DNA of 35,921 nucleotides from Chitinophaga pinensis (GTDB lineage: Bacteria; Bacteroidota; Bacteroidia; Chitinophagales; Chitinophagaceae): the NCBI GenBank assembly GCA_943327275.2, contig CALPWM020000003.1:1-35921 (forward strand). Direction: 5' to 3'. The position numbers and the translations under genes were made by a program. This document shows positions 3,808 through 34,545 of this stretch, piece by piece (positions within the stretch are counted from its first letter, which is position 1; the number at the start of each line of letters is the position of its first letter). The notes beneath the pieces were generated by a model, which saw nothing but the letters and a program-made list of their open reading frames with translations, had not been told where the DNA came from and made no database searches.

Positions 3808-3833
3808 AAAATTTTCAATTACTTTTTTATGGA

Positions 3834-5528
3834 TTAGTACCCAGGATTTTGAACCAGTTTTCCTTTGCTCTTGTCAATCTCAGCTTGTGGGATTGGATAG
3901 AGATCCCAGTGGGGCAAGTACTTTCTTACCTGGAAGGCATACCGCGGAAACGAATATTTCTTGGTTGCATCATCATACAAAACCCTGAATCCCCACATGT
4001 TGCCTGCAAAATCTTTTGCTGCTGTTCTCCACCTGCGTGCATCGAAATTCCTATGTTCTTCAAAAGCCAGTTCAACATCACGCTCATTTCTGATGCGCTT
4101 CACAAGTGAGTCTTTGCTGATGGTGCTGGCAATGGCAGGCATTGCTACCCCAACCCTTGCCCTGACTGTATTCACAGCAGCAAAAGCTGCAGCCTGTGTT
4201 GTTGTATTTGCTTCAGTCAATGCTTCAGCATAGTTGAGATAAAGTTCTGCTAACCTGATCAAAGGCCAGTTCCTGTTGGCTGCAGCGCCTGGATCCATGA
4301 ACTTTTTGAACACCATGCCTGTCCAGCTTCCATCCGATTGCTTGTTGCTGTAAGTAGACCTGCTGTCAGCACCACCGGGGCCCCACCATGGCGCGTAATT
4401 AAATCCTCTGAAAAGCTCACCAGCCTGAATGACTGAAAGGCCCAGACGGGGATCTCTGTTCAAATAAGGGTTCGCTGGGTCATAACCGGAACCAGCATCG
4501 TAGATGGCCCTTCCCGTTGTTCTCATTTCATACTTGTCGATATGGTTCAGTGTTGGATTGGTACCGCCGTAAGCCAGGGATGGCATTCCCTCATAGGTAT
4601 CCAATGAGCAACCGCAGTTTTGGAATACAAACCAAATGATCTCGGAAGCACTTCTGGAAGCAGAAGTAAACAATGTCTGATAGTTGTTGAACAAAGCTGC
4701 ACCGTATTTGGTTGCCGTATCAATTGCCTGCTTGTTCGCCAATGCTGCATCCTGCCACCTGGCATTGAGTTTTGTCGGATTGTGCAATGGACTTGCGTAA
4801 TAGAGCAGCAGTCTTCCTTTCAATGCAACACTGATGGCCCGGTTCATCCGTCCAACGGTAGCAGCACTTGTGGGTGTCGGAGGAGGAAGATATTTTGTGA
4901 CAGTATCCAACTCATTTTTGATGAACTGCACTGTTTCATCCACCGTTTTTCTTGGCTGATTGTAATCATCGGTATTGCCAGACAAGACCCCTGCGGTACT
5001 CATTACATTGGTAACCAAAGGAACCCCACCATATCTTTTGAACAATTCGAAATAGTAAAATGCACGGAGGCCTCTGGCTTCCATCTTGGTCCTTAAAATG
5101 GTTGCCGCATCAATATCTGTAACCTTGTCTATGTTTTCCAGGTACATGTTGCAACGGCGAATTCCCTGATATGAAACATTCCAGACATCATCAGGATTAT
5201 AGTACTGATTGAATGTACCATTGGTCACATTCCAACTGCCCGTCCAAATAAAACTATTGGTTGCCTCATCTGTATAGGCAGCCAGGTATGAAGTTCCGGA
5301 CCTGTTTGACCCTACACGTATATTGAATCCGCTGTAGTTTTGCAGGTAGCCATACGCTGCGCCGAGTACTTTTTCTGCCTCAATCCAGGTTTTAAAAACA
5401 GCATCCTGTGTAAAAGCTGATGATACTGAAAAGTCTGGAGCCAGAAAATCTTTCTTACATGATGCATTAAGCAAGATGATGCCCATCAAGCCAATAAACA
5501 CTTTTTTATAATTAAACATGTATTTCAT
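3834..5528 (-). CDS. SusD/RagB-like nutrient-binding outer membrane lipoprotein
   Basis: 564 aa; lipoprotein signal ending ASCKKDF, GLRAFYYFELFKRYGGVPLVT, RLAELYLNYAEAL, RNERDVELAFEEHRNFDARRW. Confidence 0.95.
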   Translation of the reverse strand: MKYMFNYKKVFIGLMGIILLNASCKKDFLAPDFSVSSAFTQDAVFKTWIEAEKVLGAAYGYLQNYSGFNIRVGSNRSGTSYLAAYTDEATNSFIWTGSWNVTNGTFNQYYNPDDVWNVSYQGIRRCNMYLENIDKVTDIDAATILRTKMEARGLRAFYYFELFKRYGGVPLVTNVMSTAGVLSGNTDDYNQPRKTVDETVQFIKNELDTVTKYLPPPTPTSAATVGRMNRAISVALKGRLLLYYASPLHNPTKLNARWQDAALANKQAIDTATKYGAALFNNYQTLFTSASRSASEIIWFVFQNCGCSLDTYEGMPSLAYGGTNPTLNHIDKYEMRTTGRAIYDAGSGYDPANPYLNRDPRLGLSVIQAGELFRGFNYAPWWGPGGADSRSTYSNKQSDGSWTGMVFKKFMDPGAAANRNWPLIRLAELYLNYAEALTEANTTTQAAAFAAVNTVRARVGVAMPAIASTISKDSLVKRIRNERDVELAFEEHRNFDARRWRTAAKDFAGNMWGFRVLYDDATKKYSFPRYAFQVRKYLPHWDLYPIPQAEIDKSKGKLVQNPGY

Positions 5529-5542
5529 TTTGATTATAGTGT

Positions 5543-8500
5543 TTAGAAGGTTGTATAAATGGTGAAATTGTATGTCTGCAATTGAGGATACACATTACCA
5601 GCAGAAGTCCTGATTTCAGGATCAAACCATTTGAAGGATGACCATGTGTAAATATTGGCAGCGGTAAGCGACAACCGCAATGCATCTACCCCTAAACGCT
5701 GAACAATTGTTTTTGAGAAATTATAGCTCAAGGCAACATTTTTCAACCTGATATAAGAGGCATCCCTTACCCAGAAGGTTGAGTTTTGGAAATTGTTCTT
5801 GGCTGTTGATGAAGACTGTGTCAGCCTGGGATAGGTTGCAGTAGCGGCTGTTGCAGGTGTCCAGCGACCCATGTGGTGATTGGCCACCTTGGCACTGTTG
5901 TAAAACTCCCATCCACCTTGTGAAGAAACAAGAAGACTGGTGTTGGTTACACCCTGGAACATGACATCGAGATCAAAGTTCTTGTATGAAATTCCATTGG
6001 TGATGGCATAGGTGATTTCAGGAAGATCCGGGTTGCCGATATTGCCCTGATCATATTGATCAATCTTGCCATCACCGTTCAAATCCTTGTACTTGATATC
6101 GCCGGGAACAATCACTCCAAAAATGGATTGATCTGCCCATTTGCTGATCTCTTCTTTTGAATTAAAAAATCCTTCTGCGATATAGCCAAACTTCTCACCG
6201 AAGCGCTTGCCAGTCCTTTCCATCCAGGGGTATGGCCTTTGAGGTTCTGTTTGGTATAGGATTTTGTTGCGGGCATAATTGTAATTGCCTCCAATGTCAA
6301 AGGCAAAATCTTTGGACAGGCGTTTGTTGTATTTCACTTCCAACTCATACCCTTTGTTCTCCATCTTTCCAACGTTAACAGGAGGCGTATTGGCTTGACC
6401 TATCAATGTTGGTACATCTTGTCTGATCAGGAGAATATTATCCCTCTTGTCATAGAAAACATCAAAGTTTACACTCAGGGACTTGTTGAAAAACATCGAC
6501 TCAATTCCAATATTGTGTTTCCATGCTGTTTCCCAAGTTACATTTGGATTACCCAGGTTCAACTCGAAAGAACCACCGAGGGCATTGGCAGCGCCTGACC
6601 CAAAATTATATCCAGTTGCTGCTCCCCATGTATCAGGAAGATAGAGATAGCGGCGTCCACCAATGTTCGCATTACCTACTTTACCGCTGGACAACCTGAG
6701 TTTCAGGTAACTGATCCAGGGTGCTTTCTTTTCCATCCAGGCTTCTTCTGTAATCAGCCATCCTGCTGAGAAGGCTGGGAAGAATCCCATCCGCCTTCCC
6801 TTCGCAAAATTCTCAGTACCGTTGTATCCTATGTTGGCTTCAGCCAGGTATTTCCCTTTATAGGCATAGGTTGAACGGCCTGCGTAACCCAGCTTGGAGA
6901 ATGGGAAACTGCTACCACTTCTTGTTCTGTCTGCAAAAAACAAGGCCAATCCAGTAAACTCATGCTTGCCTGCAAAAGCCCTTTTGTAATCAAATGCACT
7001 TTCAACATAGGTATGCTTCGTTGAGAAGGTGCTCACCCATGTAAATGCCAATGCACTTTCAGCCCCTCTGGCTGTATATACAGGACGGCCGCCTGCATTG
7101 AGTGAATAATCAAAAGCCTGGTATGTTTTTGACCTTCTCTCCGCATATTCAAAATAAGTATCGTACACAAACTTGGTGCGAAACGAAAGACCTGGAGTAA
7201 TCATGTCTAACTTTTGCTTCAGGTCCATGTTGGCTTCGATATCCGTACGGAAATTATTGGTAAAGCCTCTTCTCGCTATATCTCCAACAAGGTTGGAATT
7301 GCCATAGAATGCACCAAGGGTACCATTGGGGTTGTACACAGGTGCATGATTGGGCGCCCACCTTGCCATGTTCCACCAGAGCAAACTGGTGGCACCGCTA
7401 CCAAAATCCAATCCGTCAGAAGGCACCACCTGCTTGGCATGCTTTGCCGAAAGAGACATGGAGAAGATGGTATTCTTGGTCAGTGAATAATCGATATTGC
7501 TCCTGAAGTTGAAACGCTGGTATTTGGTATTGGTATTGTAACCACCAAATTTGGTCAACTCAGGCCTCAACAATCCTTCCTGATCAAGAAAGGTACCGGT
7601 AAGAAAATACTTCAACTGGGAAGTACCGCCCCTTACGGTTACGTTGGCCTGTAACTGCGGTGCAGAGGGCCTCAACAAGGTATCGTACCAGTTGACATCA
7701 GGAAACAGATAGGGGTCAGAACCGTCTTTGTATTTTTGAAGTGCAGTAGCATCGTAAGGCATGAAATTGGGATCGCCCCCATCGTTCAAGTAAGCCTCGT
7801 TGAACAACGTTGCATAATCATAGGACTGGAGGTATTTTGGAAGCCTTGTAGGCCTTTGCATGGTGCGGTCTATCGAAACTGTCACCTTGGGTGCACTCAA
7901 AATACCCCGCTTTGTGGTGATGATGATTACACCATTTGCACCCCTCACACCAAACACAGCTGTTGCAGATGCATCTTTCAGGATGGAAATATTATCCACC
8001 TCATTGAAATCCACCTCATTGAACCTTCTTTCCACGCCATCCACAAGAATCAATGGAGTTTGACCGGCAGTATTAAAAGTACCGTATCCCCTGATCAGCA
8101 ACAATGAGGCATCGCCACCGGGCAAGCCAGACCTTTGTTGCGTAATCAACCCCGGAAGACGACCGGCAAGTGCATTGACAACGTTGGCAGTTGGCGTATT
8201 CTTCAAATCAGCCTGGCTTACAGAAACGATGGCCCCTGTTTGTGAGGCTTTTTTTTGTGTACCAAAGCCTACAACGATGACCTCACCCAATTCTGTATTT
8301 TTTGAAACCAGATTTACCTCTGTAACGTTGGTTGAATTTACGGTGATGGTCTTGCGCTGGTAGCCTGTGAAAGTGACTTCCAGGTTGGCTGGCAAGGCGG
8401 CCACACTGACTGTAAACATCCCGGAGGAATTGGTAAATGTCCCTTTTTGGGACTTTACATCTACAATACTTGCTTCTTCGAGGGGTTTCCCATTGTCCCC

Positions 8501-10115: not shown

Positions 10116-11573
10116 TTATTGATTGTCTGGCATGCCAGGATTCAATCGCAGAATTGCAGGGGGTATTCTCATGACCAGCCTATCTGCTTTAAGGGTGTAT
10201 GTTGCTCCATCCAATGGATGGGTAGCATCAACATTGTTGTACTTGGTGTCGTTCCAAAGACGCCTCATGTCGAACCACCTGAATCCTGTACCTGCAAACT
10301 CACGCTTTCTTTCATCCAAAATTGCTTTCATGATTGCATCTTGAGTGGTAGCGGCAACTGTTGCCTCAGCCAAAGGCATCCTTGTCCTTCTGAGTATTTC
10401 TAGGTCAGCCTTGGCACCAACAATATCGTTGGCCCTTGCCTTGCACTCAGCAATCATCAAATACAAATCTGCCAGATTGGGCCCCCAATTGACGGAGATG
10501 GGTCCATTCCGCTGTTGGCCAGGCAACCCCGGTGCAGGAACTGCATTGGTAGTGCTGTTGTTGAAATAGAATCTTCTCCTTTGATCGTTTGTGCTAAAAA
10601 GTGCAAAAACATTGGGCTTCAGGTAGACGGTATTTCTTGCCGTAGCAAAATTCAAGCTCATTATTTTGAGATAGATGTTTTCATTGCTGAGGGTTTGGGC
10701 AGGATATCTATTCGCGCCCAACCATGCCTGACCAGTCGTAATCCAGCTTGGCATGACTGTATTGTAGTTGTACAATGAAACCCCTACAGTATGGTTGGGC
10801 ATGGAGGCAAGCGACAAATTCAGTTGAACAAGCGCATTGGCATAGTCACCCATCCAGAAATAGGTTTGTCCCAACAAATAATAGCCTGCGGTTTGTCCCA
10901 ACCTAGCCCGGTTAACGGTGCGAACCGGCAAATCAGGAATGGACGCCTTTAACTCATTGATGATAAAATCATATACCTCCTTTACCGTTGCCCTTTTGAA
11001 ATTGGATCCGCCTGCATCTGCAACAGCCACAATGGGAATACCCAAGTCAGTCGATGCTGTTGAGGCATTGTATGGCTTTGCAAAATAGTTTACCTGAAAG
11101 AGATGCATATAAGCCCTGTTGGCCCTTGCTTCAGCCAACAATTCCTTTTTCTGTTGGAGGGTTCCATCAGTTGCATCCATCACGCCATTGGCAATAACAT
11201 TGTAGATGTAGTTCTGTGAGTAGAAGGTTCCCCATTCACTGGACTCATCCTCTTCCTGAAAAAGGTCATCCTTCCATTGGTACGCATTCTGATATGACAG
11301 TGGCTGTGTACTCAAATAGGCTGCGCTTGAAAAAACATCATCAGACATCAGTAGCGGTGCTCCGGGATATCCAATGATAAAAGGCAAGCTTCCTGGCACG
11401 CTCCTTACGTTGATCAGGCTGTAGAGATTCGTGTTATTAAAAAGCCCGTTATAATGATCAATTCTTTTGATCAGGTCAAGTCCTTTCGGTTCAACATCAA
11501 GAAACTTTTTACACCCTTGAAATCCTGTCATGAGTGAAATCAGCATCACTGCACTAAGCAATATTCTTTTCAT
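10116..11573 (-). CDS. SusD/RagB-like nutrient-binding outer membrane lipoprotein
   Basis: 485 aa; lipoprotein signal ...GFQGCKKFLDVEPKG; RANRAYMHLFQVNYFAKPY, DLYLMIAECKARAND, DERKREFAGTGFRWFDMRRL. Confidence 0.94.
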   Translation of the reverse strand: MKRILLSAVMLISLMTGFQGCKKFLDVEPKGLDLIKRIDHYNGLFNNTNLYSLINVRSVPGSLPFIIGYPGAPLLMSDDVFSSAAYLSTQPLSYQNAYQWKDDLFQEEDESSEWGTFYSQNYIYNVIANGVMDATDGTLQQKKELLAEARANRAYMHLFQVNYFAKPYNASTASTDLGIPIVAVADAGGSNFKRATVKEVYDFIINELKASIPDLPVRTVNRARLGQTAGYYLLGQTYFWMGDYANALVQLNLSLASMPNHTVGVSLYNYNTVMPSWITTGQAWLGANRYPAQTLSNENIYLKIMSLNFATARNTVYLKPNVFALFSTNDQRRRFYFNNSTTNAVPAPGLPGQQRNGPISVNWGPNLADLYLMIAECKARANDIVGAKADLEILRRTRMPLAEATVAATTQDAIMKAILDERKREFAGTGFRWFDMRRLWNDTKYNNVDATHPLDGATYTLKADRLVMRIPPAILRLNPGMPDNQ

Positions 11574-11594
11574 GATAATTTTCTTTTTCCTTTG

Positions 11595-14500
11595 TTATTT
11601 GAATGTAGTCCTGAAACCAACGGTATAGAAAGCAGGCATCCTTCCGGTTCTTGTTCCACTGCTTAGGTTGAAGAATTCAGGATCAATGTTCGCATCGTTG
11701 TTGTTCCACAACATTACATTGTTGACCTGCGTATAAAAGGAGCACTCTGACATGCCCAACTTGTTAGCCACTGATGCTGGAATTGCATAATTCAACGTCA
11801 TGTCGCGCAATTTAGCATAGGCTGCACTAACAATATGGGTATTGGCTTGCGTATAAATGTTCAGCAGGCGCAAACCATTCTGTGCAGTATTGCCAGTATA
11901 ACGGGGCACATTTGTATTTTGCTCATCACCGGGTTTTTGCCATCTTTCTGCAAGATATGTTGGGACATTGCTGGTCAAACGACCAGTAAAGAACTGGTTA
12001 ACATCCCTGCGCATTACATTGCCAAAATTATAAACTACCAGAAAAGAGACTGTGAATGGTCCATATGTAAGGTTATTTGTAATTCCACCATACCAGAGCG
12101 GCTGGGTTGTTCCCATGTACAAAGGATCACCGATGGTAAAATCACCAGACCGGCGGGCAGAGTCCTTACCATTGGCCTTCAATGCAACAGGATTTCCAAA
12201 TCTATCCAGGCCTGCATAATTGTATGCGAACAAACCATAAGCAGAATATCCTTCAGTGAAAGTTGAATTGACTCTTGAAGCCGCAGTTTGCGTCAGAGCA
12301 GACTTCAGGCTAAGGATCTTGTTCTCATTGTATGAGAGGGTAAAATCAGTTGTCCACTTGAATTTTTTGCTTTGGACATTGCTCGTATTGATTTGAATTT
12401 CAATTCCCTTGTTCTCGAGATTCCCCAGGTTGTTGTAAGCGAATGACCAACCGGTTGTGGGATCAGCAGGCTGAAAGCCCAGGAGGTCTGTTGTATTTTT
12501 CTTGTAGACATCAACAGATCCGGAAATCTTGTTGCCAAACAATGCAAAATCTAACGCAATATTGGTTGTGGCCGTTCTTTCCCATCCTATTTTCTCGTTA
12601 CGTGGATACAATACATTGTACCCGGTTCCAAGTCCAGAGAAATAGGCAACATTGGCTGCTGTCACAATATCATATGGTCCTCCAGATCCGGGATTGGGAG
12701 CATTTCCACCCAATCCGTAGGTCACCCGAAGGTTGAGGTTGTTGATGTTGTTTGACTTGAAAAAGGATTCCTTGGAAATATTCCAGGCACCACCCAAACT
12801 CCATATGGGCTTGTATTGCAGGCTCCTGTCGGTTCCAAATAAATTGGACTGATCAACACGGATACTGCCGTTAAATGTATATTTCCTGTTGTACGTGTAT
12901 GCAGTATTTGCATAAGCAGATACAAAACGTCTCTCCACTTCGGAATAGGTAACTGGTCTTGAATTCAATACGTTGTTGGTTGTTCTCGCTGGTTGAAAAT
13001 TAACCGGAGCAACAACACCCCTTACTGCCAATGAATCTTCATTGTACAAAGCATAGGTCATGGTTTGAAAATCATAGCCGCGTCTGTAGTTCTGCACACC
13101 AGTGTTCAGGTTGTTCCTGAGCTCTGTACCTGCAATAGCAGTCACCTGGTGTTTCTGTGCGAAGATCCTGTCAAAATTCAACTGATTCCTTACTGTCCAG
13201 GCTACTGCAGATGCATTTTGTGTGCTGTAATGACCGCCTGTTCTGGGGAGGAAATAGGTGGGTGCAACACCCGGGCTGCCGCCCGCTCTTGTAAAGTATA
13301 CCAACTCATCCCTGACCTTGTAGGAATTTTGATTGTAGTATTCATACCCATCTGTATTGGCCCTCTGGTATTGTGCCCTCGCCTCATACGTCAGTCCCCT
13401 GAAGAGTTTGATGGTAAGACCGGCATTGATGCGGGCGGAAAAATTAACCCTGTCGTTCAAGGTGTTGGCAGGTTCCCGCAATGGAACATAATCAAGGTTG
13501 ACCAAACTTTGCGCCTCAGAACTGGCCCTGAATTCTTCCTGGCGCTTCAGATAGGCTTGCGAAAGCGGATTGCCCTGGGCATCTGCAAACATGGCATAAG
13601 GCAGGTAGTTGCTGTTGGTTCCTGGAAGATCGCTCAGGAGGAAATTTTTGGTTTTCTCATAGGCGATATTGGTAATAATATCCAACTTGATGGCGGGCGA
13701 AAATGTAAAATTCTGCCTGAGATTCATCTGGTAACGGCTGAGATCGGTCTTCTTGTCGTTTTTATCCAATGTATAAGCAAGCGATCCATAATAAGAGTGA
13801 AACTTGCTGCCACCATCAAAGTTCAAACTGTTGTTGACCAGCATGGATGGCTGCGTCAAATACTGGTTGATTTGTCCGCGGTTGTTGTATTGTGCCAATG
13901 AATCAAACCTTGAACCGGCAAGTGATGCACTGATCAGCCCACGAGAGAGGTCGTACTGAATCCGCTCATGTGGAGGGATGATGGGCGTGGCACCAATAAA
14001 GTTGGTCACCGTAGCCCAGGGATAATCCGTTGCTGAGAAAATCCCTTTAGCAGTTTCTAAAAATTGTGATGTTCCCATCATGTTGAAATAGTCCAGATCG
14101 GGACGGCCCCTGAATGTGGTAAAGGCATTGAACTGCAACTTAATCTTCTGTGGCTGGTTCGTGCTTTTGCCTTTCTTTGTTTCGATGACGATAACGCCAT
14201 TGGCAGCAGCCGCACCCCAGATGGAAGCTGCTGTCGCATCACGCAATACTGTCATTGATTCAACATCCTGCGGATTGATCAGTGTAGACACTGAAGCATA
14301 ATCACTGATGGGTACTCCATCCACCACAATCAATGGTGACCTTGAGGCCTGTATGGTGGTAAGCCCCCTGATCAGGAACTTTTCATTGCTTGCGCCGTAG
14401 TTGACGGAAAGCCCTGGAACCAGTCCCTCCAGACGATCAACCACATTCATGCTCAGGCTTTTCTTATTGATGTCTTCATTGTTCACCGTTGAGAATGAAC

Positions 14501-15191
14501 CAGTACTTCTTTCCTTTGACAGTGCCTGGTAACCTGTATACACCAAGGCAATTGATTTCAGGTTCTGAGACTGTGGAACCAACTGGATATTGTATACTTT
14601 GTTTGATCCCAATTTGTAAGTGGCCATTGTGTAACCAACAAAAGAAACAACAATGGTTTGACCAGGGTCTGCGTCAATGCTGAATTTGCCATCCTTGTTG
14701 GTAACCGCCATCTTGTTGGTTTCTTTCACAGTGATGGTGGCACCTTCCAACGGAACACCAAGGGTATCTGTCACCCGGCCTGAAATGGTATTGGCCAACT
14801 GCTGCAATGCTTTTGAGGGTGATGATATTGCCTGCTTTTCCTTTACAACAATTGTCTTTTCCACAACAGAAAAACCGATGGGAAGATTTTTGAAACACAA
14901 TTCCAGTGCATCCTTCAGGTTGCCATTGGAGATGTCAATGCTGACCTTTCCAGCCTTGTTCAACAATTCATCTTTGTAAAAAAATTGGAACCCGGTTTGG
15001 CGATTGATTTCTGTAAAAACCTTCTGCAGCGATGCGTTTTTTAGGTTCAATGTCACCTGCTGTGAATAGGAATGTGCGGAAACCTGTAAAAAGGCCGCCA
15101 ACAACATCACCGCAGTGAACTTCATCTTGAGCAGGCTTTTAGGCCCTTTTCCTGCGCGGAAATACAGGAAACCCTTCTTCTCTACATGCAT
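11595..15191 (-). CDS. SusC/RagA-family TonB-linked outer membrane protein with N-terminal STN (secretin/TonB short N-terminal) signalling domain
   Basis: 1198 aa; STN-like VTLNLKNASLQKVFTEINRQTGFQFFYKDELL...VVEKTIVVKEK, CarbopepD-like ISGRVTDTLGVPLEGATI, plug LIVVDGVPISDYASV; adjacent to fecR/fecI-like genes. Confidence 0.95.
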   Translation of the reverse strand: MHVEKKGFLYFRAGKGPKSLLKMKFTAVMLLAAFLQVSAHSYSQQVTLNLKNASLQKVFTEINRQTGFQFFYKDELLNKAGKVSIDISNGNLKDALELCFKNLPIGFSVVEKTIVVKEKQAISSPSKALQQLANTISGRVTDTLGVPLEGATITVKETNKMAVTNKDGKFSIDADPGQTIVVSFVGYTMATYKLGSNKVYNIQLVPQSQNLKSIALVYTGYQALSKERSTGSFSTVNNEDINKKSLSMNVVDRLEGLVPGLSVNYGASNEKFLIRGLTTIQASRSPLIVVDGVPISDYASVSTLINPQDVESMTVLRDATAASIWGAAAANGVIVIETKKGKSTNQPQKIKLQFNAFTTFRGRPDLDYFNMMGTSQFLETAKGIFSATDYPWATVTNFIGATPIIPPHERIQYDLSRGLISASLAGSRFDSLAQYNNRGQINQYLTQPSMLVNNSLNFDGGSKFHSYYGSLAYTLDKNDKKTDLSRYQMNLRQNFTFSPAIKLDIITNIAYEKTKNFLLSDLPGTNSNYLPYAMFADAQGNPLSQAYLKRQEEFRASSEAQSLVNLDYVPLREPANTLNDRVNFSARINAGLTIKLFRGLTYEARAQYQRANTDGYEYYNQNSYKVRDELVYFTRAGGSPGVAPTYFLPRTGGHYSTQNASAVAWTVRNQLNFDRIFAQKHQVTAIAGTELRNNLNTGVQNYRRGYDFQTMTYALYNEDSLAVRGVVAPVNFQPARTTNNVLNSRPVTYSEVERRFVSAYANTAYTYNRKYTFNGSIRVDQSNLFGTDRSLQYKPIWSLGGAWNISKESFFKSNNINNLNLRVTYGLGGNAPNPGSGGPYDIVTAANVAYFSGLGTGYNVLYPRNEKIGWERTATTNIALDFALFGNKISGSVDVYKKNTTDLLGFQPADPTTGWSFAYNNLGNLENKGIEIQINTSNVQSKKFKWTTDFTLSYNENKILSLKSALTQTAASRVNSTFTEGYSAYGLFAYNYAGLDRFGNPVALKANGKDSARRSGDFTIGDPLYMGTTQPLWYGGITNNLTYGPFTVSFLVVYNFGNVMRRDVNQFFTGRLTSNVPTYLAERWQKPGDEQNTNVPRYTGNTAQNGLRLLNIYTQANTHIVSAAYAKLRDMTLNYAIPASVANKLGMSECSFYTQVNNVMLWNNNDANIDPEFFNLSSGTRTGRMPAFYTVGFRTTFK

Positions 15192-15225
15192 AATCTTGGT
15201 TGTTTTGGTTTATGATCAATATATA

Positions 15226-15244
15226 GTCTACTTTATAGGTAGAC
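15226..15244. promoter_or_regulatory. Short inverted repeat between the FecR-like gene and the STN-SusC gene (possible regulatory dyad)
   Basis: GTCTAC-TTTATAG-GTAGAC in the 103-bp fecR/susC intergenic region; function unproven. Confidence 0.3.
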
Positions 15245-15294
15245 AATACCTTAATTGTCTGATAGGTAACCCATTGCCACAGGATTGTTTGTGA

Positions 15295-16470
15295 TTAAAA
15301 CACAACAATCGTCCTTCCTTCTATTGCAAATCGAACTCCGCCCTCTTCCATAATTTTCAGTACTTGAGACAGATTGCTCTTCCGGCTCACAATACCTGAA
15401 AATGTCTCTGGATTCAGCTTCCCCTTGTAAACAACATCAATGTCGTACCAGCGACTGATCTCTCGCATGATGCTTTTTACATCCATGCCCTTGAAAATGA
15501 AAAGGTCATTTTTCCAGGCAACTTCCTGTTCCACATCAACATCATCAATCACCTGCATTTCAGGTTGTCTATAGGCAACCCTGATTTGCTGCCCGGGAAG
15601 AAGGGCCTGGGTTTTACCCAGCATCATGAAGTTGATTTTGCCTTCGAGCAGGGTGGTTCTCAGCAAATCCTCATCCTGATATGCATTGACATTGAAGGCA
15701 GTGCCCTTCACTTCGATCCTGGAACCGTTTTGCAAAGAAACCTTGAAAGGTTTTTCACCTTTTTTAACCTCGAAATATGCTTCACCCATCAGTTCCACCT
15801 GTCTTTCCTTGCCTTTAAACACAACCGGAAAACGAAGGGATGAGGCTGCATTTAACCAGACAAGCGTTCCATCAGACAAGACCAATTGGTACTTGCCTCC
15901 CCTTGGTGTCTGGATGGTATTGTAGGTGATTTCAGCATTTTCATTATCGCCATTGTACTGCAGGGTCCCATCCAACTTTATCACTTGTACATTCCCTTCT
16001 GCAGCGATGTCACCATTGGGAGCAGCATCAAGAGAAATGATTTTGCCATCAGCCAAAGTAAGTGTTGCCTTTGTTCCTCCCGGGAGTATCTCAACAGGCG
16101 CTGCTGAAGATTGAACAGGCTGGTCCATATTTGTTCTCCAGATAAAAAATGATGCCACCAATACTGCTGCCGCTGCTGCTGCCCAGGCGAAACGCTTGCG
16201 AAAACTGGACATATCTTTAATAACAGATGCTGATTGGCTTATTTCTGATGCAGCGCTCACCTTGTTCCAGGCAGCATCCACAGACAAGGAATTCATGAAA
16301 TCAATGGCAGATTGCTGTGCTTTTCCCTCAATAAGCCCATCATAAACCATTTGGTTGGATGGATTGGCCTCTAACCAGGCATTCAGTTTCAGTTGCTCAT
16401 CTGGCGTCAACCCATGGTTGATCTGCTTGGAGATCAGATTGGCATAATATATAATCTTTTCCTGTTCCAT
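15295..16470 (-). CDS. FecR-family anti-sigma factor
   Basis: ORF listed to 16497 uses TTG; ATG at 16470 (MEQEKIIYYANLISKQ). Single TM WAAAAAAVLVASFFIW, FecR core NTIQTPRGGKYQLVLSDGTLVWLNAASSLRFPVVFKGKERQVELMGEAYFEV, C-terminal DUF4974/STN-like end. Confidence 0.95.
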   Translation of the reverse strand: MEQEKIIYYANLISKQINHGLTPDEQLKLNAWLEANPSNQMVYDGLIEGKAQQSAIDFMNSLSVDAAWNKVSAASEISQSASVIKDMSSFRKRFAWAAAAAAVLVASFFIWRTNMDQPVQSSAAPVEILPGGTKATLTLADGKIISLDAAPNGDIAAEGNVQVIKLDGTLQYNGDNENAEITYNTIQTPRGGKYQLVLSDGTLVWLNAASSLRFPVVFKGKERQVELMGEAYFEVKKGEKPFKVSLQNGSRIEVKGTAFNVNAYQDEDLLRTTLLEGKINFMMLGKTQALLPGQQIRVAYRQPEMQVIDDVDVEQEVAWKNDLFIFKGMDVKSIMREISRWYDIDVVYKGKLNPETFSGIVSRKSNLSQVLKIMEEGGVRFAIEGRTIVVF

Positions 16471-16586
16471 TGGCTGGTTATTGACCTGCTGCTGCAATTC
16501 AGCATGAATTGTGATAGCAATAATTATTAAAACAACTGAACCTGTATTCCGGGTGAAAGAAAAAGAAAATAAATGCTAAGTAATAA

Positions 16587-17150
16587 TCAGGGGTTGAGTA
16601 GGAGCAACAAGGCAAAGGCGCGAGGGTCCATTTTCAGCCGCAACAATTGAAGGGCCCTTTTCTTTTGGGTCTTTACGGTGTTGATGGAGATATTCAGCTT
16701 TCGGGCGATTTCCTCATTTTTCATGCCTTCAAAAAAAGAAAGGGTAATGACTTTTTTACAGCCACTGGGAAGTCCCATCAACGCAAGGTGAACTTCACCA
16801 TAAACCTCAGCCCTGATCAGGTTGTTCAATGCAACAGGATCCTCTGAAATTGAGAGATGAGCAGAAAGGGCATGCTTCTCTTCAACAGCCTTGTGTTTGA
16901 TTTGATTGAGGCAGGCATTTTTTACCGATAAATAAAGAAAGGATTTGAGGGCATTTTCAGCAAAAAAATCATGTTTGCGACCCTGCAGCCGCAGGAAAAC
17001 ATCCTGCACCATGTCTTCCGCCATTTCCTTGTTATCGAGCATGGTGAATGCAAAATAGCAAAGCCTGGGATAATAGGCCCGAAATATCCCCTCCATGTTT
17101 TCTATTGCAACAGGTGAAGGATCCGTATTTCCGTCAGACATTGGCTGCAT
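16587..17150 (-). CDS. ECF-subfamily RNA polymerase sigma-70 factor (FecI-like)
   Basis: 187 aa; region 2 KEMAEDMVQDVFLRL, region 4 VITLSFFEGMKNEEIARKLNISINTVKTQKKRALQLL; upstream of fecR-like gene. Confidence 0.95.
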   Translation of the reverse strand: MQPMSDGNTDPSPVAIENMEGIFRAYYPRLCYFAFTMLDNKEMAEDMVQDVFLRLQGRKHDFFAENALKSFLYLSVKNACLNQIKHKAVEEKHALSAHLSISEDPVALNNLIRAEVYGEVHLALMGLPSGCKKVITLSFFEGMKNEEIARKLNISINTVKTQKKRALQLLRLKMDPRAFALLLLLNP

Positions 17151-26684: not shown

Positions 26685-26725
26685 AATCCTTCTGAGGAAT
26701 TACATATTCCCCAGAAGGATTTTTT
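26685..26725 (+). terminator. Intrinsic terminator downstream of the GH2 gene
   Basis: AATCCTTCTG (26685-26694) / CAGAAGGATT (26712-26721) with inner GGAAT/ATTCC pairing, followed by TTTTTTATTT. Confidence 0.8.
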
Positions 26726-29700
26726 ATTTGCGAAGGATTTGTCCTGCCTTGATCATCTCCTTCTCCAACACATCATAAGGAACCTGCTGCATGCTGACTT
26801 TCTTGTCAATGGCCAATGATGCAGCAAGCGCGGCAGATTGGCCAAGAATCATGAACACCGGCTCCATCCGAATAGAGCCATAGGCAATATGTGAACTGGA
26901 TACGCATACCGAAACCAGCAGGTTTGAACATTCTTTTTCTTTTGGCAAGATTGCTCCAAAGTCAATGGAATAGGGCCTTTCAGGCTTCACCCCGATATCT
27001 CCTTCATTCTGAAGAAAACCATCAGGTGTGACATAGCGCTGTGTATTGTGTGAATCCAAAGAGTATGAACCCATGCCGATAGGACGTTTGATGTCAGTCT
27101 TGCCCAGAGCATCTTTTTCCGTCATCACAAAATCACCCAACATCCTCCTGGCCTCTCTGACATAAAGCTGATAAGGCCATCCACCATTGTCAACAAATTC
27201 ATCCTTGGCCAATCCATAGGTATTGAACTGCTGTTGGATGTCCTTGGGCACAGAAGGGTCATTGGCCATGAAATAGAGATAGCCCTTCTGGTACTTTTCG
27301 TGCTCCAAGATGATCTCCTTTCTGCGCACATAAGAAGCATCCGGATAATCATAGTTGGCCCCAATAAAATCACTGCTGAAAGGGCCATGGTTGTTGGTAT
27401 CCGTCTTCTTGTTGGGAACTGCATCAAACTTGGGAAATACATCGCGCCAGCCTGCTGCAAAAAGCCTTGAAAGAATTTCATAGCGCTTGGGGTCATAACC
27501 CTCCGGCTTGGGAAATGGAATGCTGTTGGCTGCTGCTGTACTCATGCACAACCGGTAACAGTAGGCCTGGATTTTATTGTCGCCATCACCCTTTTTCCCT
27601 GGAGGCGCAGCACTGACTTCTGGAAGCAAGCCACTTGAAGGAAGTCCGGGAATTTTATACGGATCAATTTTCTGTTTGAAATGGTGCGCATGGTGAAATA
27701 CCTCCGTTTGTACACCATTAAATTGTTCGCCGTATTGACCAGTCGCTTCCCTTCCAACTGTATATTTAACACCGGCGGCGGCCATCAGATCACCCTCGTA
27801 AGTGGCATCGATGAATGCCTTCCCTGCAAAGACCATTCCATCCAGTGTTTTAAAGGAAAGGATTTTATTGCCTTTCATGTTTACTCCTTCAAGAGAACGG
27901 TCAAGCCAACGGTCGCGGTAGACCATGATCCTGTTTTCGCTGATCATCGCTTCAAATGCTGCTTCAGCAACATGGGGTTCAAACAACCACATGGTTTTGT
28001 ATGCCGTGTCATTGGCAACAGTTCCTTGCCCTCGATTGCCAAACGCACTGCGTTGCTGCCATTTCCATGCACTGTCTGTTTGATAATGGTTGTAGAGTCG
28101 ATGATAGAAATTCCTGGCCAATCCACCGATGACGGTCTTGTCGCCAGTGTCGGTGTAACCCAAGCCATTTGATGACAATCCACCCAAATGCAAATCAGGA
28201 GAAACCACCACCACAGATTTCCCCATTTGTACCGCCTGCACGGCTGCAATGACGGCAGATGAAGTTCCACCATATACGACGATGTCTGCAGTGATTTTTC
28301 TTTCCAAAGACAAGACCTGCCCATCTTTCAGCAACTGTGCTTTCAAGCTTTCATAGGAAAGATCCTGCACATCGATATTTTTTTCCAAAGCCATGACTGC
28401 TGCAGTGGCAGCGGATTGCCCGAGCACCATGTACACCGGTTCCATGCGGATGGAACTATAGGCCACATGGGATGCAGACAAACAAACAGGCACCAGCAAA
28501 TTTGAACACTCCTTTCTTTGGGGGATGATGGAACGGAAACTGATTCCATAATAGGTTGACTTCTGCTTTCCATATCCACCCTCGAGCCTTACCTTCCCCT
28601 CGTTGTCCAATACCCGTGCTACATAATGACAATCCAAAGGATAGGTCGCTACTGCAACCGGATCAGCCACAGGCCTTGCTCCATTGCAGTTTTGCTCTGT
28701 CATGACGTAGTCGCTGATCATCCTTCTTGCTTCCCTCACATAAACCTGATAGGGAAAATGATCGGTATCGAGATATTCATCCTTGGGCCATCCCCAGGTT
28801 TTCATTTCTGTGCGCATGCTCAACGGCAATCGTTCGTCATTGCCAAGAAACCAAATCAGCCCCATGGAATAGTCTTTGTGCTTTGCGGCAATCTCAACCC
28901 TGGTTGCATGATCTGCATTGGGCCACGCATAAGAATTTCCCACAAAATTGCCCTGGTTGGTATCTGTCTTTTTGTTGGGCATGGGAGTGAATGAAATGAT
29001 GCTGCTCAATTCAATATCTGGATTGAGGGCAATCATTCTTGCCAAAAACTCATACCAAAGTGGGTTATAGTTCTTGGGCTTTACAACATCAATGCGGTTG
29101 GCAGCATCATTGGTCAAGGTCAGCCGATAGCAATAGGTTTGTGTGCGGTCATCACCAGTACCCTTATCACCTTGGGGCTTCGGATCAATGAAAGGCAATA
29201 ATCCGCTTTCTGGCTTTCCGGGAATAACATAAGGGTCGATGGATGTTTCGCCATTGCCGACAACTGCCCCGAGGCGAATGCCGTTCATGGTTTCGCCATA
29301 GGTGGCGTTGCTTTCACGACCAACCTTGAAAGAGAGTCCGGCCATGCGCATGAGATCACCCTCATAACTGGCATCAATGAACATTTTGGCAGGTATCTTC
29401 ATCCCGCTTTCCATGCTGATGATTTTCAAACGCCCGTTCTCTTTTATTGGCTCAGACTTGAGGTTGATGCGTTGGTTGTAAATCACCGTTACACCATGAT
29501 CTTGCAACATCTGTTTGAAGATTTTTTCACCGATGCCAGACTCATAGACCCACTGCATTTTCAATGAATCATTTTTGCCTGTAAAGGTTCTTTTCTTTGA
29601 CCGTTCAAAAAAATCTGTCCGATTTTCAGATTTCCATGCAGCTGAATCTAAGTAATATGCATAAATACGCTGGTAAAATTCCTTTGTAAACCCTCCAGCA

Positions 29701-29954
29701 ATCCGGAAATTGTTGAGGTCTGTTGCAGTGAGCCCCGAAGTAGCCATCCCCCCAAGATGCTTATTGGTGCTAATCAAAACCACAGACTTTCCCATCTTGG
29801 CTACCTGTAATGCAGCGGTGATGCCTGCAGGCGTTTCTCCATAAACGCATACATCAAAAACCCTTTCTTTTGCAGTGGCCGATGAAAAAATGAAGATGAT
29901 CAACAAGGGAATACTGAGCAGTCTTTTTAACAGGTTTTGGAAGCAGAACATCAT
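26724..29954 (-). CDS. Tandemly duplicated FAD-dependent oxidoreductase (two FAD_oxidored-type modules in one chain)
   Basis: 1076 aa; VFDVCVYGETPAGITAALQVAKMGKSVVLIS and ADIVVYGGTSSAVIAAVQAVQMGKSVVVVS each begin a ~520-550 aa module; both end KECSNLLVxVCxSxSHxAYxSIRMEPVxMxLGQSAA. Confidence 0.9.
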   Translation of the reverse strand: MMFCFQNLLKRLLSIPLLIIFIFSSATAKERVFDVCVYGETPAGITAALQVAKMGKSVVLISTNKHLGGMATSGLTATDLNNFRIAGGFTKEFYQRIYAYYLDSAAWKSENRTDFFERSKKRTFTGKNDSLKMQWVYESGIGEKIFKQMLQDHGVTVIYNQRINLKSEPIKENGRLKIISMESGMKIPAKMFIDASYEGDLMRMAGLSFKVGRESNATYGETMNGIRLGAVVGNGETSIDPYVIPGKPESGLLPFIDPKPQGDKGTGDDRTQTYCYRLTLTNDAANRIDVVKPKNYNPLWYEFLARMIALNPDIELSSIISFTPMPNKKTDTNQGNFVGNSYAWPNADHATRVEIAAKHKDYSMGLIWFLGNDERLPLSMRTEMKTWGWPKDEYLDTDHFPYQVYVREARRMISDYVMTEQNCNGARPVADPVAVATYPLDCHYVARVLDNEGKVRLEGGYGKQKSTYYGISFRSIIPQRKECSNLLVPVCLSASHVAYSSIRMEPVYMVLGQSAATAAVMALEKNIDVQDLSYESLKAQLLKDGQVLSLERKITADIVVYGGTSSAVIAAVQAVQMGKSVVVVSPDLHLGGLSSNGLGYTDTGDKTVIGGLARNFYHRLYNHYQTDSAWKWQQRSAFGNRGQGTVANDTAYKTMWLFEPHVAEAAFEAMISENRIMVYRDRWLDRSLEGVNMKGNKILSFKTLDGMVFAGKAFIDATYEGDLMAAAGVKYTVGREATGQYGEQFNGVQTEVFHHAHHFKQKIDPYKIPGLPSSGLLPEVSAAPPGKKGDGDNKIQAYCYRLCMSTAAANSIPFPKPEGYDPKRYEILSRLFAAGWRDVFPKFDAVPNKKTDTNNHGPFSSDFIGANYDYPDASYVRRKEIILEHEKYQKGYLYFMANDPSVPKDIQQQFNTYGLAKDEFVDNGGWPYQLYVREARRMLGDFVMTEKDALGKTDIKRPIGMGSYSLDSHNTQRYVTPDGFLQNEGDIGVKPERPYSIDFGAILPKEKECSNLLVSVCVSSSHIAYGSIRMEPVFMILGQSAALAASLAIDKKVSMQQVPYDVLEKEMIKAGQILRK

Positions 29955-30877: not shown

Positions 30878-31531
30878 TCAATCTGTATCCTCTGCTTTCA
30901 ACAGCCTGATATCCCTCTCAAGCTGCTCCATGTCCAGATCGAGCGTACCATTGTAAATACCCCTGATCCTTCCGGTTTTATCTACAAGCAATACATGTTC
31001 GGTATGCAAAAAATCTGTGCTGTCTTTGGTAAAACCCAATGCCTCTTCTGCAAAATAAGACCTGCGGGCAAGGGTATAGATATCCGATTTGGGGCCGGTT
31101 AGTAAATGCCAATTGGGAGCATTGATCTTGTTCGTGTTGGCGTATTCCCTCAACCTTGAAACACTATCGCGCCAGGGAGTGACAGAAAAAGAAAGAAATA
31201 CTACCGCAGAATCCTTTTCATATGCATGGTTGAGTTTGGCAATCTTATTCATCATTCCAGGACAGATACTCCCACAACCGGTAAAAAAGAAATTGGCCAC
31301 ATGGATTTTGCCTTCTACATCTTTCTCAGAAAATGCATGACCATTCTGGTTTTTCAAATCAAATCTACCAATGGTATGGGTGATTATTTTTTCAACTGAT
31401 GCTGCACCATTCAAAAAAATCGGACTAAAATCTGGTGTATTATAATAGGGCAAAGCCTTTACTGAAGGCTGTTGCCTGCAAGCCGCCATCAGAAAAAACA
31501 AACTAATTGATGCCAACACTATCCGATACAT
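30878..31531 (-). CDS. SCO1/SenC-family protein (copper chaperone/thioredoxin-fold)
   Basis: ORF listed to 31639; ATG at 31531 gives a lipoprotein signal MYRIVLASISLFFLMAACRQQ. CxxxC motif FFTGCGSICPGMMNK and downstream His in FLHTEHVLLVDKTGRIRG. Confidence 0.9.
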   Translation of the reverse strand: MYRIVLASISLFFLMAACRQQPSVKALPYYNTPDFSPIFLNGAASVEKIITHTIGRFDLKNQNGHAFSEKDVEGKIHVANFFFTGCGSICPGMMNKIAKLNHAYEKDSAVVFLSFSVTPWRDSVSRLREYANTNKINAPNWHLLTGPKSDIYTLARRSYFAEEALGFTKDSTDFLHTEHVLLVDKTGRIRGIYNGTLDLDMEQLERDIRLLKAEDTD

Positions 31532-32015
31532 TGATACAGTTTTTTGTTCCGAGCAGACCGTAACGCCTGCCATTGCGGATGATGTAATTGGAACGGATGC
31601 TGCCATCGTCGTACCATTGTTTTTGCGCACCCGATTCATACCCCCTTTCGTAATTCATTTCACGAACTAGCTTTCCTTCTGGATTCCACTCTCTGCAAGT
31701 GCCCTGGTATTCTCCATTGGCGAAAAAATACTGCGCTTGTATTTTTCCATTGCTCCAATACCTTTTCAATGGGCCGGTTTTGACGCCCTGCACATAATAG
31801 CGCTGCTCCATCAAAACACCATTCTCATGAAACCTTCTGAACTCGCCATGTTCCATGCCATTGTAAAAAGATCTAACAGCAAGGGTATCAGCAGTACCGG
31901 GATAAAATTCATACTGCGCAATACCCTTGGGTTGCATCTTGCATCCCATCAAAAAAATCAGGCAAAGCGCAAACCAACTAATTCGAAACCGTACCAGCTG
32001 TTCCAAAGAAACCAT
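31503..32015 (-). CDS. MORN_2/YwqK-like repeat lipoprotein
   Basis: ORF listed to 32087; ATG at 32015 (or 32021) gives lipoprotein signal ...FALCLIFLMGCKMQPKG. Repeats YNGMEHGEFRRFHENGVLMEQRYYVQGVKTGPLKRYWSNGKIQAQYFFANGEYQGTCREWNPEGKLV. Confidence 0.8.
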   Translation of the reverse strand: MVSLEQLVRFRISWFALCLIFLMGCKMQPKGIAQYEFYPGTADTLAVRSFYNGMEHGEFRRFHENGVLMEQRYYVQGVKTGPLKRYWSNGKIQAQYFFANGEYQGTCREWNPEGKLVREMNYERGYESGAQKQWYDDGSIRSNYIIRNGRRYGLLGTKNCINVSDSVGIN

Positions 32016-32748
32016 TTCCATTGATATAAGGATCTGCATCCGTGATATGATAGTGATAAATGCCAGCAGGATAATCTGCTGTGGCATGCTTGTGCCCGTG
32101 GTAGGCGTCCAGGCTTGTGTTGCTCACTTTCGCACCATTCTCTTCTGGACCATATACCGGAAAGCCATCCAACAGAAAACCCAACAAGGATGACTTGTTC
32201 AACTTAGTTTGGGTCAGGTAAAGTGGCTCAACATGATAATGGTACATGCCGCCAGGAGCTGGATGGCCCCAGCTTTGGTCAAAGCTCGCCATTTCTCCAG
32301 TCAATGGTTGATTGGGGCCAGCATACTGGTTGAAGAATGGCACGCCATTTACAGTTACACCTATTGGCCCCAAGGGAGTTGGCTTCTTAATGCTTGCTTC
32401 AGCAGGATTGATGGGGATTTTGAAGGTATAGGAAAGTGTATTGATGGAATTGGGATTCTTCACAAATATTTTCCCTCCAAAAGTGGCCCCTGAAAATGCT
32501 TCATAGAGTGGATTTGTTGTTGCATAATAAGCACTCTTATGGTCTGGTGTGCCAGTGCTTTTGATGGTAACGAAAGTTCCATCAGCGGTGATGCTGGTGG
32601 CGCCGTATATCTTCTTGTAAACATCGGGGACCGCAGATGATGTTGAAGGGGTTGAGGGGGTTGAAGGAGTTGAAATTGCGGCCTTCTTGCAGGCGAAACC
32701 AAGAATGATGAGTGCCAATAAAGTGAAAAAATTGTTTTTCGTATTCAT
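31978..32748 (-). CDS. YHYH-domain lipoprotein
   Basis: 256 aa; lipoprotein signal ILGFACKKA, T/S/P linker, GGMYHYHVEPLY, LLDGFPVYGPEENG, AYHGHKHATADYPAGIYHYHITD. Confidence 0.88.
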   Translation of the reverse strand: MNTKNNFFTLLALIILGFACKKAAISTPSTPSTPSTSSAVPDVYKKIYGATSITADGTFVTIKSTGTPDHKSAYYATTNPLYEAFSGATFGGKIFVKNPNSINTLSYTFKIPINPAEASIKKPTPLGPIGVTVNGVPFFNQYAGPNQPLTGEMASFDQSWGHPAPGGMYHYHVEPLYLTQTKLNKSSLLGFLLDGFPVYGPEENGAKVSNTSLDAYHGHKHATADYPAGIYHYHITDADPYINGNGFFGTAGTVSN

Positions 32749-32766
32749 GTTTGCGATTTTAAAAAT

Positions 32767-33549
32767 TTATTGTTGATCGGGGGGAGGCAAAGGGCGTTTT
32801 CCACCATGGGGAGGATGGCCCTCACCTTGTTTCGGAGGATGTCCTTCTCCGGGAGGTGGTGGGCGATGTCCTTCTCCGGGAGGAGGTGGGCGATGTCCTT
32901 CTCTAGGTGGTGGTGGATGACCTTCACCGGGTGGAGGTGGTGGGCGATGTCCTTCTCCAGGTGGTGGCGGATGTCCCTCTCCGGGAGGTGGCGGGCGATG
33001 CTGATCAATTGCCGATGGATGTTTCCTATTGCTATCCGCTGCTGATGCAGGAAGATGATGATCAACAGGGCCGGGTGGAGCACCTTGGGGGGCTCTTGAT
33101 TCAGCCATCAAACCAGCCAATTGATCCAATAACCCATCAAATTTCTTTTTTTGCCTGTCGTTGCAGAGTGCCCTCAATTGTTGAAAATGTTCCAGATTGA
33201 GCAACTCCAGATCCTGAATTTTTATGGTGATGGCCTCTACTGCTTTCATTTTCTCCGGCTCGGGAATGACGGGTTGCTTAAGCAGTTGGAAAAGGTTTTC
33301 TTTGGCAATCCTGATATCCTTTTTTAAGGACCTTGCTGATGCCTGATGCGCCTCAATTAAATCCTGAAAAGAAAGCAGCTGACTTGAATCCAATTCAAGG
33401 GTTTGGACCAGAAACTCCCTGGGAGATCCTTTCTGGACTTGACTTTTAGAGGGCCTATTGATCCAAAATAACAAAATGGTTACTGCGTTGGCTAACAGGA
33501 GAAAAACAACCCACCAGGTAAGCACCCTGCTTTTTATCGTATTGTTCAT
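32767..33549 (-). CDS. Membrane-anchored Spy/CpxP/CnrX-like periplasmic (heavy-metal sensor-type) protein with His/Pro-rich repeat tail
   Basis: 260 aa; N-terminal TM VLTWWVVFLLLANAVTILLFWI, helical Spy-like core LELDSSQLLSFQDLIEAHQASARSLKKDIRIAKENLFQLL...LEHFQQLRALCNDRQKKKFDGLLDQL, tail (HRPPPPGEG)n. Confidence 0.8.
   Translation of the reverse strand: MNNTIKSRVLTWWVVFLLLANAVTILLFWINRPSKSQVQKGSPREFLVQTLELDSSQLLSFQDLIEAHQASARSLKKDIRIAKENLFQLLKQPVIPEPEKMKAVEAITIKIQDLELLNLEHFQQLRALCNDRQKKKFDGLLDQLAGLMAESRAPQGAPPGPVDHHLPASAADSNRKHPSAIDQHRPPPPGEGHPPPPGEGHRPPPPPGEGHPPPPREGHRPPPPGEGHRPPPPGEGHPPKQGEGHPPHGGKRPLPPPDQQ
32801..33000 (-). repeat. Coding tandem repeat, 24-30-nt units encoding H(R/P)PPPPGEG
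   Basis: Consecutive units HRPPPPGEG, HPPPPGEG, HRPPPPPGEG, HPPPPREG, HRPPPPGEG, HRPPPPGEG, HPPKQGEG, then HPPHGG. Confidence 0.92.
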
Positions 33550-33561
33550 GATCTCAACGGT

Positions 33562-33864
33562 TTAATAAATTGAATTGATGGATTGATTGTAGTCAGACGC
33601 AAAACGCTGAATTGAATACCCTTCGGCTTGGCTTTTCTCTTTTGATGAAAATTGAAAAAATAGGAAGCCATTCAATACCAACAAAAGTGACAATGCGGCA
33701 ATCGCCATTGCTGGTCTGACCACAAAGCCCCATTCCTCACCTGCTTTTCTGGCTTCCATTCTTGCCTTTAACCTGGTATAAAAAAACTCATCCGTTCCAA
33801 CTTCCTGGATATTATCCAACAACTGAAGATGGTCATCCAGCAAACTGTTTGAACTCTTGTTCAT
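33562..33864 (-). CDS. Small single-TM protein, candidate anti-sigma factor
   Basis: ORF listed to 33897 uses TTG; ATG at 33864 (MNKSSNSLLDDHLQLLDNIQ). One TM AMAIAALSLLLVLNGFLFFQF; starts about 10 bp after the ECF sigma stop codon. Confidence 0.65.
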   Translation of the reverse strand: MNKSSNSLLDDHLQLLDNIQEVGTDEFFYTRLKARMEARKAGEEWGFVVRPAMAIAALSLLLVLNGFLFFQFSSKEKSQAEGYSIQRFASDYNQSINSIY

Positions 33865-33874
33865 TGCACTTTTT

Positions 33875-34447
33875 TTATTGGTTGTAATATTGTTCAAGAT
33901 TCTTTTTTAGGATTTCTTTTGCCCTGCTTACCAAAGATTCGATCGCCTTTATCCCTAATCCCATGATTTCTGTTGCTTCCTCATATTTCATCCCTTGTAT
34001 CCGGATCAAGGTGAACGCCAATTGTTGTTTTTCAGGGAGTTGGCCGATGGCCCTGTACAAGGCCGTCGCTTTCTCCTTGTTTTCTGCAGCAATTCCAGGA
34101 TTCATTTCCACCACATCAATACTTCTCTTTTCTTCGGGCATCCACCAGGGAATGATGGCGTGTAGCCTTTGCCTGGTTTTCCTTTTCCTCAATTTTTCCA
34201 ATGCTTTTCTGATGGCGATTTTCTGCACCCAGGTGGAGAGTTTTGAGTCTCCCTTGAATGACACAATCGACCCATGAATCTGAATAAAGGTTTCCTGCAG
34301 CACATCTTCGGCATCATCCCTGTCTTGCAGAATGTTCAATACGGTATGATGTATGCGGTGGCTGAGGCTGTTCACCAACCACCGAAAAGCAAGTTCATCC
34401 CCCTGCCTCAAACCGCTTATGAGTTCCGCTTCATTCACATTACTCAT
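33875..34447 (-). CDS. ECF-subfamily RNA polymerase sigma-70 factor
   Basis: 190 aa; region 2 LQDRDDAEDVLQETFIQIHGSIVSFKGDSKLSTWVQKIAIRKALEKLRK, region 4 IGQLPEKQQLAFTLIRIQGMKYEEATEIMGLGIKAIESLVSRAKEIL. Confidence 0.95.
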   Translation of the reverse strand: MSNVNEAELISGLRQGDELAFRWLVNSLSHRIHHTVLNILQDRDDAEDVLQETFIQIHGSIVSFKGDSKLSTWVQKIAIRKALEKLRKRKTRQRLHAIIPWWMPEEKRSIDVVEMNPGIAAENKEKATALYRAIGQLPEKQQLAFTLIRIQGMKYEEATEIMGLGIKAIESLVSRAKEILKKNLEQYYNQ

Positions 34448-34487: not shown

Positions 34488-34521
34488 AAAAAAAGGGGAG
34501 CCATCTTACGATAGCCCCCCC
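34488..34521 (-). terminator. Intrinsic terminator of the T9SS cargo gene
   Basis: Minus-strand RNA GGGGGGCUAUC-GUAA-GAUGGCUCCCC-UUUUUUU: ~11-bp stem including two G-U pairs, GNRA tetraloop, U-tract. Confidence 0.8.
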
Positions 34522-34545
34522 TTCGAGTTTAATTTTGAAAACCTA

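Follow-up and report, generated by a model that had tools for sequence, protein, structure and literature searches.

A CnrYXH-like sigma factor, membrane protein and sensor set ahead of a YHYH-MORN-SCO lipoprotein module in Chitinophaga pinensis, with a putative role in envelope copper handling

The stretch of Chitinophaga pinensis DNA analysed here (35,921 bp, contig CALPWM020000003.1 of GenBank assembly GCA_943327275.2), referred to below as the window, carries on its minus strand, at positions 30878–34447, six closely packed genes whose first three resemble in layout the CnrYXH metal-sensing system of Cupriavidus metallidurans. In the direction of transcription they encode an extracytoplasmic function (ECF) sigma factor (33875–34447, 190 aa, Pfam domains Sigma70_r2 and Sigma70 r4_2), a small protein with a single transmembrane (TM) segment, presumed to be an anti-sigma factor from its CnrY-like slot between sigma factor and sensor (33562–33864, 100 aa), a membrane-anchored protein predicted to be a sensor of the CnrX/Spy fold (32767–33549, 260 aa), a YHYH lipoprotein with two YHYH motifs (31978–32748, 256 aa, PF14240, E = 1.4e-24), a MORN-repeat lipoprotein (31503–32015, 170 aa, MORN_2, E = 1.7e-14) and a SCO1/SenC lipoprotein with C86-x3-C90 and H176 (30878–31531, 217 aa, PF02630, E = 4.6e-25). 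This order and spacing had been described in an earlier reading of the letters and reading frames alone (the sequence-only reading), and all six open reading frames (ORFs) were found exactly there. The sigma factor and one-TM genes are separated by 10 bp (with an ATG start at 33864 for the latter), the one-TM and sensor genes by 12 bp, and the sensor and YHYH genes by 18 bp; the YHYH and MORN genes overlap by 38 bp and the MORN and SCO genes by 29 bp. The 29-bp overlap was seen again in many relatives, which supports the starts chosen for MORN and SCO. For the sigma factor gene, homologues suggest that translation begins at a GTG lying 9 bp further downstream than the annotated ATG.

The AlphaFold2 model of the sensor consists of a TM segment at residues 3–30 followed by four helices between residues 43 and 149 (pLDDT, the predicted local distance difference test score, 87.5). 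A Foldseek search of the PDB returned CnrX or NccX as every one of the first 15 matches (TM-score 0.58–0.82 by target length, probability 1.0), bearing out the Spy/CnrX fold that the sequence-only reading had guessed for this gene. A sequence profile built from 23 relatives found NccX (E = 0.0013), TM segment included, and Spy (E = 0.0057). The Metal_resist family (PF13801) was matched by 19 of these 23 relatives, with a best E of 1.8e-12, and the window protein itself fell below the gathering cut-off (14.9–17.4 bits vs 29.2). Among the metal ligands of CnrX, namely H42, H46, E63, H119 and M123, only H119 is matched, by H121. H121, together with H68 and C129, is conserved in 93–95% of 75 sensors, and this set is kept in 23 of the 25 sensors adjoining SCO and in 29 of the 30 adjoining MbnP/MbnH genes, which are described below. 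As judged from the helix limits in the model, H68 and H121 probably sit at a similar height on the two long antiparallel helices. A 27-bp tandem repeat (32838–33000, minus strand, 6.1 copies according to Tandem Repeats Finder) codes for the PPPPGEGH(R) tail of the sensor. Such a Pro/Gly/His-rich tail occurs in the window protein and its closest kin, varies in length among close relatives and is absent from most relatives, so that it is not essential. At locus L138 (4888–5886) a 332-aa CpxP/Spy-like protein is inserted between the sensor and YHYH.

The sigma factor matched sigma-H, RpoE and SigW structures in the PDB with E values of 1e-20 to 1e-14 and CnrH (4cxf) more weakly (3.7e-9); on these matches it is no closer to CnrH than to RpoE or SigW. 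For the one-TM protein no Pfam match was obtained, which is unsurprising, as anti-sigma factors of the CnrY type have next to no sequence in common with other classes, even when they bind in a similar way (PMC7406223). At 68 of the 75 sensor loci a sigma factor gene is followed by a small gene (a member of the annotated one-TM family or encoding fewer than 130 aa) and then by the sensor gene, and 70 of the 71 small proteins found between sigma factor and sensor have one strong hydrophobic TM segment. A second set of sigma factor, one-TM and CnrX-like sensor genes is present in the same genome (L194, contig C199 of G000, 2902–4299), in a different neighbourhood and with no YHYH gene on its 4.6-kb contig. 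At another locus (L005, 5194–5502) the start of the sigma factor gene seems to run straight into the end of the sensor gene, which a deletion of the central part of this triad, or a misassembly, would explain; the YHYH, MORN and SCO genes are intact.

Searching with the YHYH protein gave 80 Bacteroidota loci, a set picked by similarity, that span Chitinophagaceae, Sphingobacteriaceae, Spirosomataceae, Flavobacteriaceae, Saprospiraceae and others. MORN and SCO genes neighbour YHYH in 76 of them, mostly overlapping, across many different genomic settings. In a second sample, 296 genomes drawn evenly across the class and not chosen by gene neighbourhood, the 25 best YHYH loci were examined; 20 had MORN and SCO (one of these cut by a contig end), and the remaining five encode mostly a YHYH subtype of 326–365 aa. 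The arrangement is far beyond chance, and its recurrence in related and class-wide loci alike means that the trio is a unit; conserved synteny, which the sequence-only reading had put forward as a check, was found.

The YHYH protein scored 87.5 bits against PF14240 (gathering cut-off 25), and D157, H162, Y169–H172, D194, D214, H219 and Y231–H234 were invariant in 55 sequences. Its structure model is weak (pLDDT 69) and had no match in the PDB, for which reason no function is claimed from the fold; Foldseek matched the model with viral YHYH proteins (E = 1.6e-8). No experimental function for the YHYH family was found in the literature searched, and the phage YHYH domain has been predicted to be a Zn hydrolase (PMC7824862). 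The MORN protein has three MORN_2 stretches (PF07661, 52.6 bits, cut-off 29.6), its lipobox C25 being kept in 97% and its C-terminal C160 in 100% of 99 sequences. The SCO protein (PF02630, 88.6 bits, cut-off 22.8) had as its best PDB match the SCO1/SenC lipoprotein 4hde (4.8e-21); C86 and C90 are kept in 99% and H176 in 98%. Residues of the trio are conserved as in functional metal or redox proteins, and since the genome has other SCO genes the SCO of the trio is considered a dedicated paralogue. Two YHYH genes lie close together, mostly in tandem, at five loci (L013, L077, L046, L056 and L173). At L162, L163 and L164 YHYH proteins sorted by the type IX secretion system (T9SS) lie beside two metallophosphoesterases, checked with Pfam in L163 and represented by neighbours of similar length in L162 and L164; L163 also has an Lcl_C protein and a sigma-TM-sensor triad, and L164 a 185-aa membrane protein that looks HupE-like, for which NCBIfam gave no confirmation.

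Triad and trio are adjacent at 18 of the 68 loci that allow a judgement, head-to-tail at 14 and divergently at four. Pedobacter segetis and Spirosoma spitsbergense are examples of cultured relatives that have all six genes. When placed on a tree built from 88 YHYH proteins of trio loci, the pairing needs at least seven changes (17 by parsimony), hence it has been made or broken repeatedly, and the operon is put together from two modules that frequently occur separately. Run against the 296 genomes, the sensor profile gave 85 matches; for 35 of these a YHYH gene lay no more than 6 kb away, where 0.28 would be expected. About 20 complete examples of a second operon type were present among the sensor loci, with the order sigma factor, one-TM protein, sensor, MbnP, MbnH, YHYH. 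Its MbnP (PF20243, E from 2e-23 to 4e-53) belongs to a copper-binding family, and its MbnH/MauG-type di-haem enzyme matched PF03150 at about 1e-50. The triad and YHYH are common to both operon types and the rest differs, MORN and SCO in one and MbnP and MbnH in the other, so that in both YHYH is near a copper-type partner. The triad also occurs without any YHYH. A search of the window genome for MbnP gave no match, although, the genome being 79% complete and control genomes being likewise unmatched, its absence is not demonstrated.

Upstream of the sigma factor gene the sequence GAAGGATTACGATCTTGTATGCATCTA (34477–34451, minus strand) reads GAAGGA-N15-CATCTA, a putative ECF promoter and the only zero-mismatch site in the window. 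Further upstream, a terminator-like hairpin with a 15-bp stem and a T run (34491–34524, minus strand, a consensus match only) belongs to the preceding gene, which encodes a T9SS-sorted protein, and would set the operon apart from it. Of 74 sigma upstream regions, 8 contained a pattern of the GAAGGA-CATCTA kind, against 0.09 for shuffled sequences, and most of the 8 come from close relatives or from sigma groups that are alike. At the divergent loci L010, L011 and L048 the intergenic motif occurs twice, once facing the sigma factor gene and once facing YHYH, and the same double motif was recognised by eye at L056. Upstream of trio operons lacking a triad directly upstream, AAGGW-N13-18-CRTC was present in 10 of 75 (0.14 expected), at a distance of 61–70 bp to the aligned start. 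Another form, TTAAAC-N-RTCYAA, which was chosen after looking, was present in 20 of 75; both counts include related species that are not independent. This distribution fits autoregulation of the sigma factor together with control of the trio, which would act in trans at loci where the two modules are separate. No single promoter emerged from a two-block expectation-maximisation search across the 74 sigma upstream regions, probably owing to too great a diversity of the sigma factors; the pattern test in the subgroup of the window worked. The window genome contains two exact GAAGGA-N14-17-CATCTA sites, a number that does not exceed that of the reversed control, and a genome-wide regulon is therefore not callable from the motif. 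The other site (6075–6102; G000:C5:10074–10101) is 39 bp upstream of a gene for a secreted protein of 143 aa that matches DUF4890 weakly (L217, 5605–6036).

Taken together, it seems somewhat probable that these genes form a CnrYXH-like system with copper in the envelope as its signal and a copper-handling lipoprotein module under its control, where the identity of the metal, the direction of the response, the contact between sigma and anti-sigma factor and the biochemical activities are what we infer. Copper is favoured because the triad and YHYH are common to operons with SCO and with MbnP, both copper proteins, and because ScoC, PCuAC and MbnPH-like genes co-occur in proteobacterial copper operons (PMC9426467). 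The sequence-only reading had put copper forward with a question mark, and the guess gains independent support from the sister operon and from the metal ligands of SCO, Cys-x3-Cys and His, which are intact. The CnrX-fold protein would read periplasmic metal, most likely copper, via its His/His/Cys site, and the one-TM protein would keep the sigma factor at the membrane. By analogy with CnrYXH, in which metal binding to the sensor releases the sigma factor (PMC7689651), binding would shift the complex of sensor and anti-sigma factor, and the freed sigma factor would transcribe its own operon from the GAAGGA-N15-CATCTA promoter, raising the three envelope lipoproteins. These may bind, buffer or deliver copper, with SCO as a copper or thiol-redox carrier, YHYH as a His-rich metal protein or metalloenzyme, either carrying copper or acting as an enzyme, and MORN as a partner with an invariant C-terminal Cys. 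Nothing experimental on sigma-linked heavy-metal sensors in Bacteroidota was found in the literature searched.

Several points weigh against this interpretation. Only about one trio locus in four has the triad beside it, and the use of YHYH loci to build the sensor profile makes an association of sensor and YHYH easier to find. The MbnP proteins of Bacteroidota score below the strict TIGR04052 cut-off, and the argument for copper may fairly be called guilt by association. Spy-family proteins are also chaperones and SCO proteins also act in thiol redox, and redox or folding stress would fit much of the evidence. MopE/CorA-type proteins resemble MbnP mainly through the di-haem partner. Given that such copper-acquisition proteins are down-regulated by copper (PMC3621798), whereas CnrX is activated by its metal, the operon may respond to copper scarcity and not to excess.

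Envelope redox or folding stress would call for a Spy-fold sensor that reads misfolded protein or thiol state via Cys129 and an SCO that serves as thiol-disulphide reductase. The fold group of the sensor includes Spy and CpxP, an extra CpxP/Spy-like gene is inserted at L138, and invariant Cys residues occur in the sensor and in MORN, besides the Cys pair of SCO. This explanation is nonetheless judged unlikely, as the nearest structures are those of the metal sensors CnrX and NccX and not of Spy, the sensor has two conserved His besides the Cys, SCO retains its metal-binding His and the partner genes are of copper type. It is less likely still that the same architecture serves zinc, nickel or cobalt, with YHYH as a surface Zn-dependent hydrolase: CnrX senses Ni/Co, the invariant YHYH residues are rich in His and Asp, the domain in phages is the predicted Zn hydrolase cited above, and in one relative (L163) YHYH lies with metallophosphoesterases, but the partners SCO and MbnP/MbnH are of copper type and H42, H46, E63 and M123, which bind Ni/Co in CnrX, are absent. 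That a sigma/anti-sigma/sensor unit stands by chance ahead of a constitutive lipoprotein operon is very improbable, for even though most trio loci have no adjacent triad and the triad is found also without any YHYH, 35 of 85 sensors are near YHYH, the pairing repeats in two operon types and two orientations, and the same promoter motif precedes both modules.

If the copper-sensing interpretation holds, the design of the CnrX sensor has wide use beyond metal efflux and relies there on different metal-binding residues. A broader proposal, which we advance tentatively, is a copper-status regulon of Bacteroidota in which a CnrX-fold His/His/Cys sensor controls two interchangeable YHYH operons and YHYH, either as an exported copper protein or as an enzyme dependent on copper, represents a new class. 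Members of the YHYH family are present in Bacteroidota, in cyanophages and giant viruses and in diatoms, and a conserved operon that places YHYH under a predicted metal sensor, beside SCO or MbnP/MbnH, gives the family a testable role.

Elsewhere in the window, a cluster of ECF sigma factor, FecR, SusC-like and SusD-like genes (10116–17150) is a typical polysaccharide or TonB-linked uptake locus, and a single ORF of 1076 aa (26724–29954) contains two FAD_oxidored stretches, an apparent tandem duplication. The operon itself is flanked by genes for a nitroreductase and a T9SS protein, and no CBA efflux pump adjoins it among the flanking genes of the window.

Like CnrYXH and NccYXH of C. metallidurans, the window system combines in one operon an ECF sigma factor, a one-TM protein (in the window a presumed anti-sigma factor) and a tethered periplasmic sensor of the CnrX fold, in which H121 aligns with the CnrX ligand H119, and to this extent the architecture proposed in the sequence-only reading stands. 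Membership in CnrYXH does not: four of the five CnrX ligands are replaced by a conserved His/His/Cys set, the sigma factor is not CnrH-specific, and the predicted output is a set of YHYH, MORN and SCO lipoproteins instead of a CBA pump, for which reasons the system is regarded as CnrYXH-like and neither as CnrYXH nor as its orthologue. The gene order also differs, being sigma, TM, sensor in the window and Y, X, H in CnrYXH. The operons for MbnP, the copper-binding protein, and MbnH, its di-haem MauG-like enzyme, are related through the sister operon with triad and YHYH in the same class, and the window operon has MORN and SCO in their place. With SCO1/SenC copper chaperones the window SCO shares the fold family, Cys-x3-Cys and the distal His, but it differs in being a dedicated paralogue linked with YHYH and MORN. 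The window YHYH protein, finally, has the family (PF14240) and predicted fold of phage tail proteins and differs from these in being a lipoprotein encoded in a copper-type operon.

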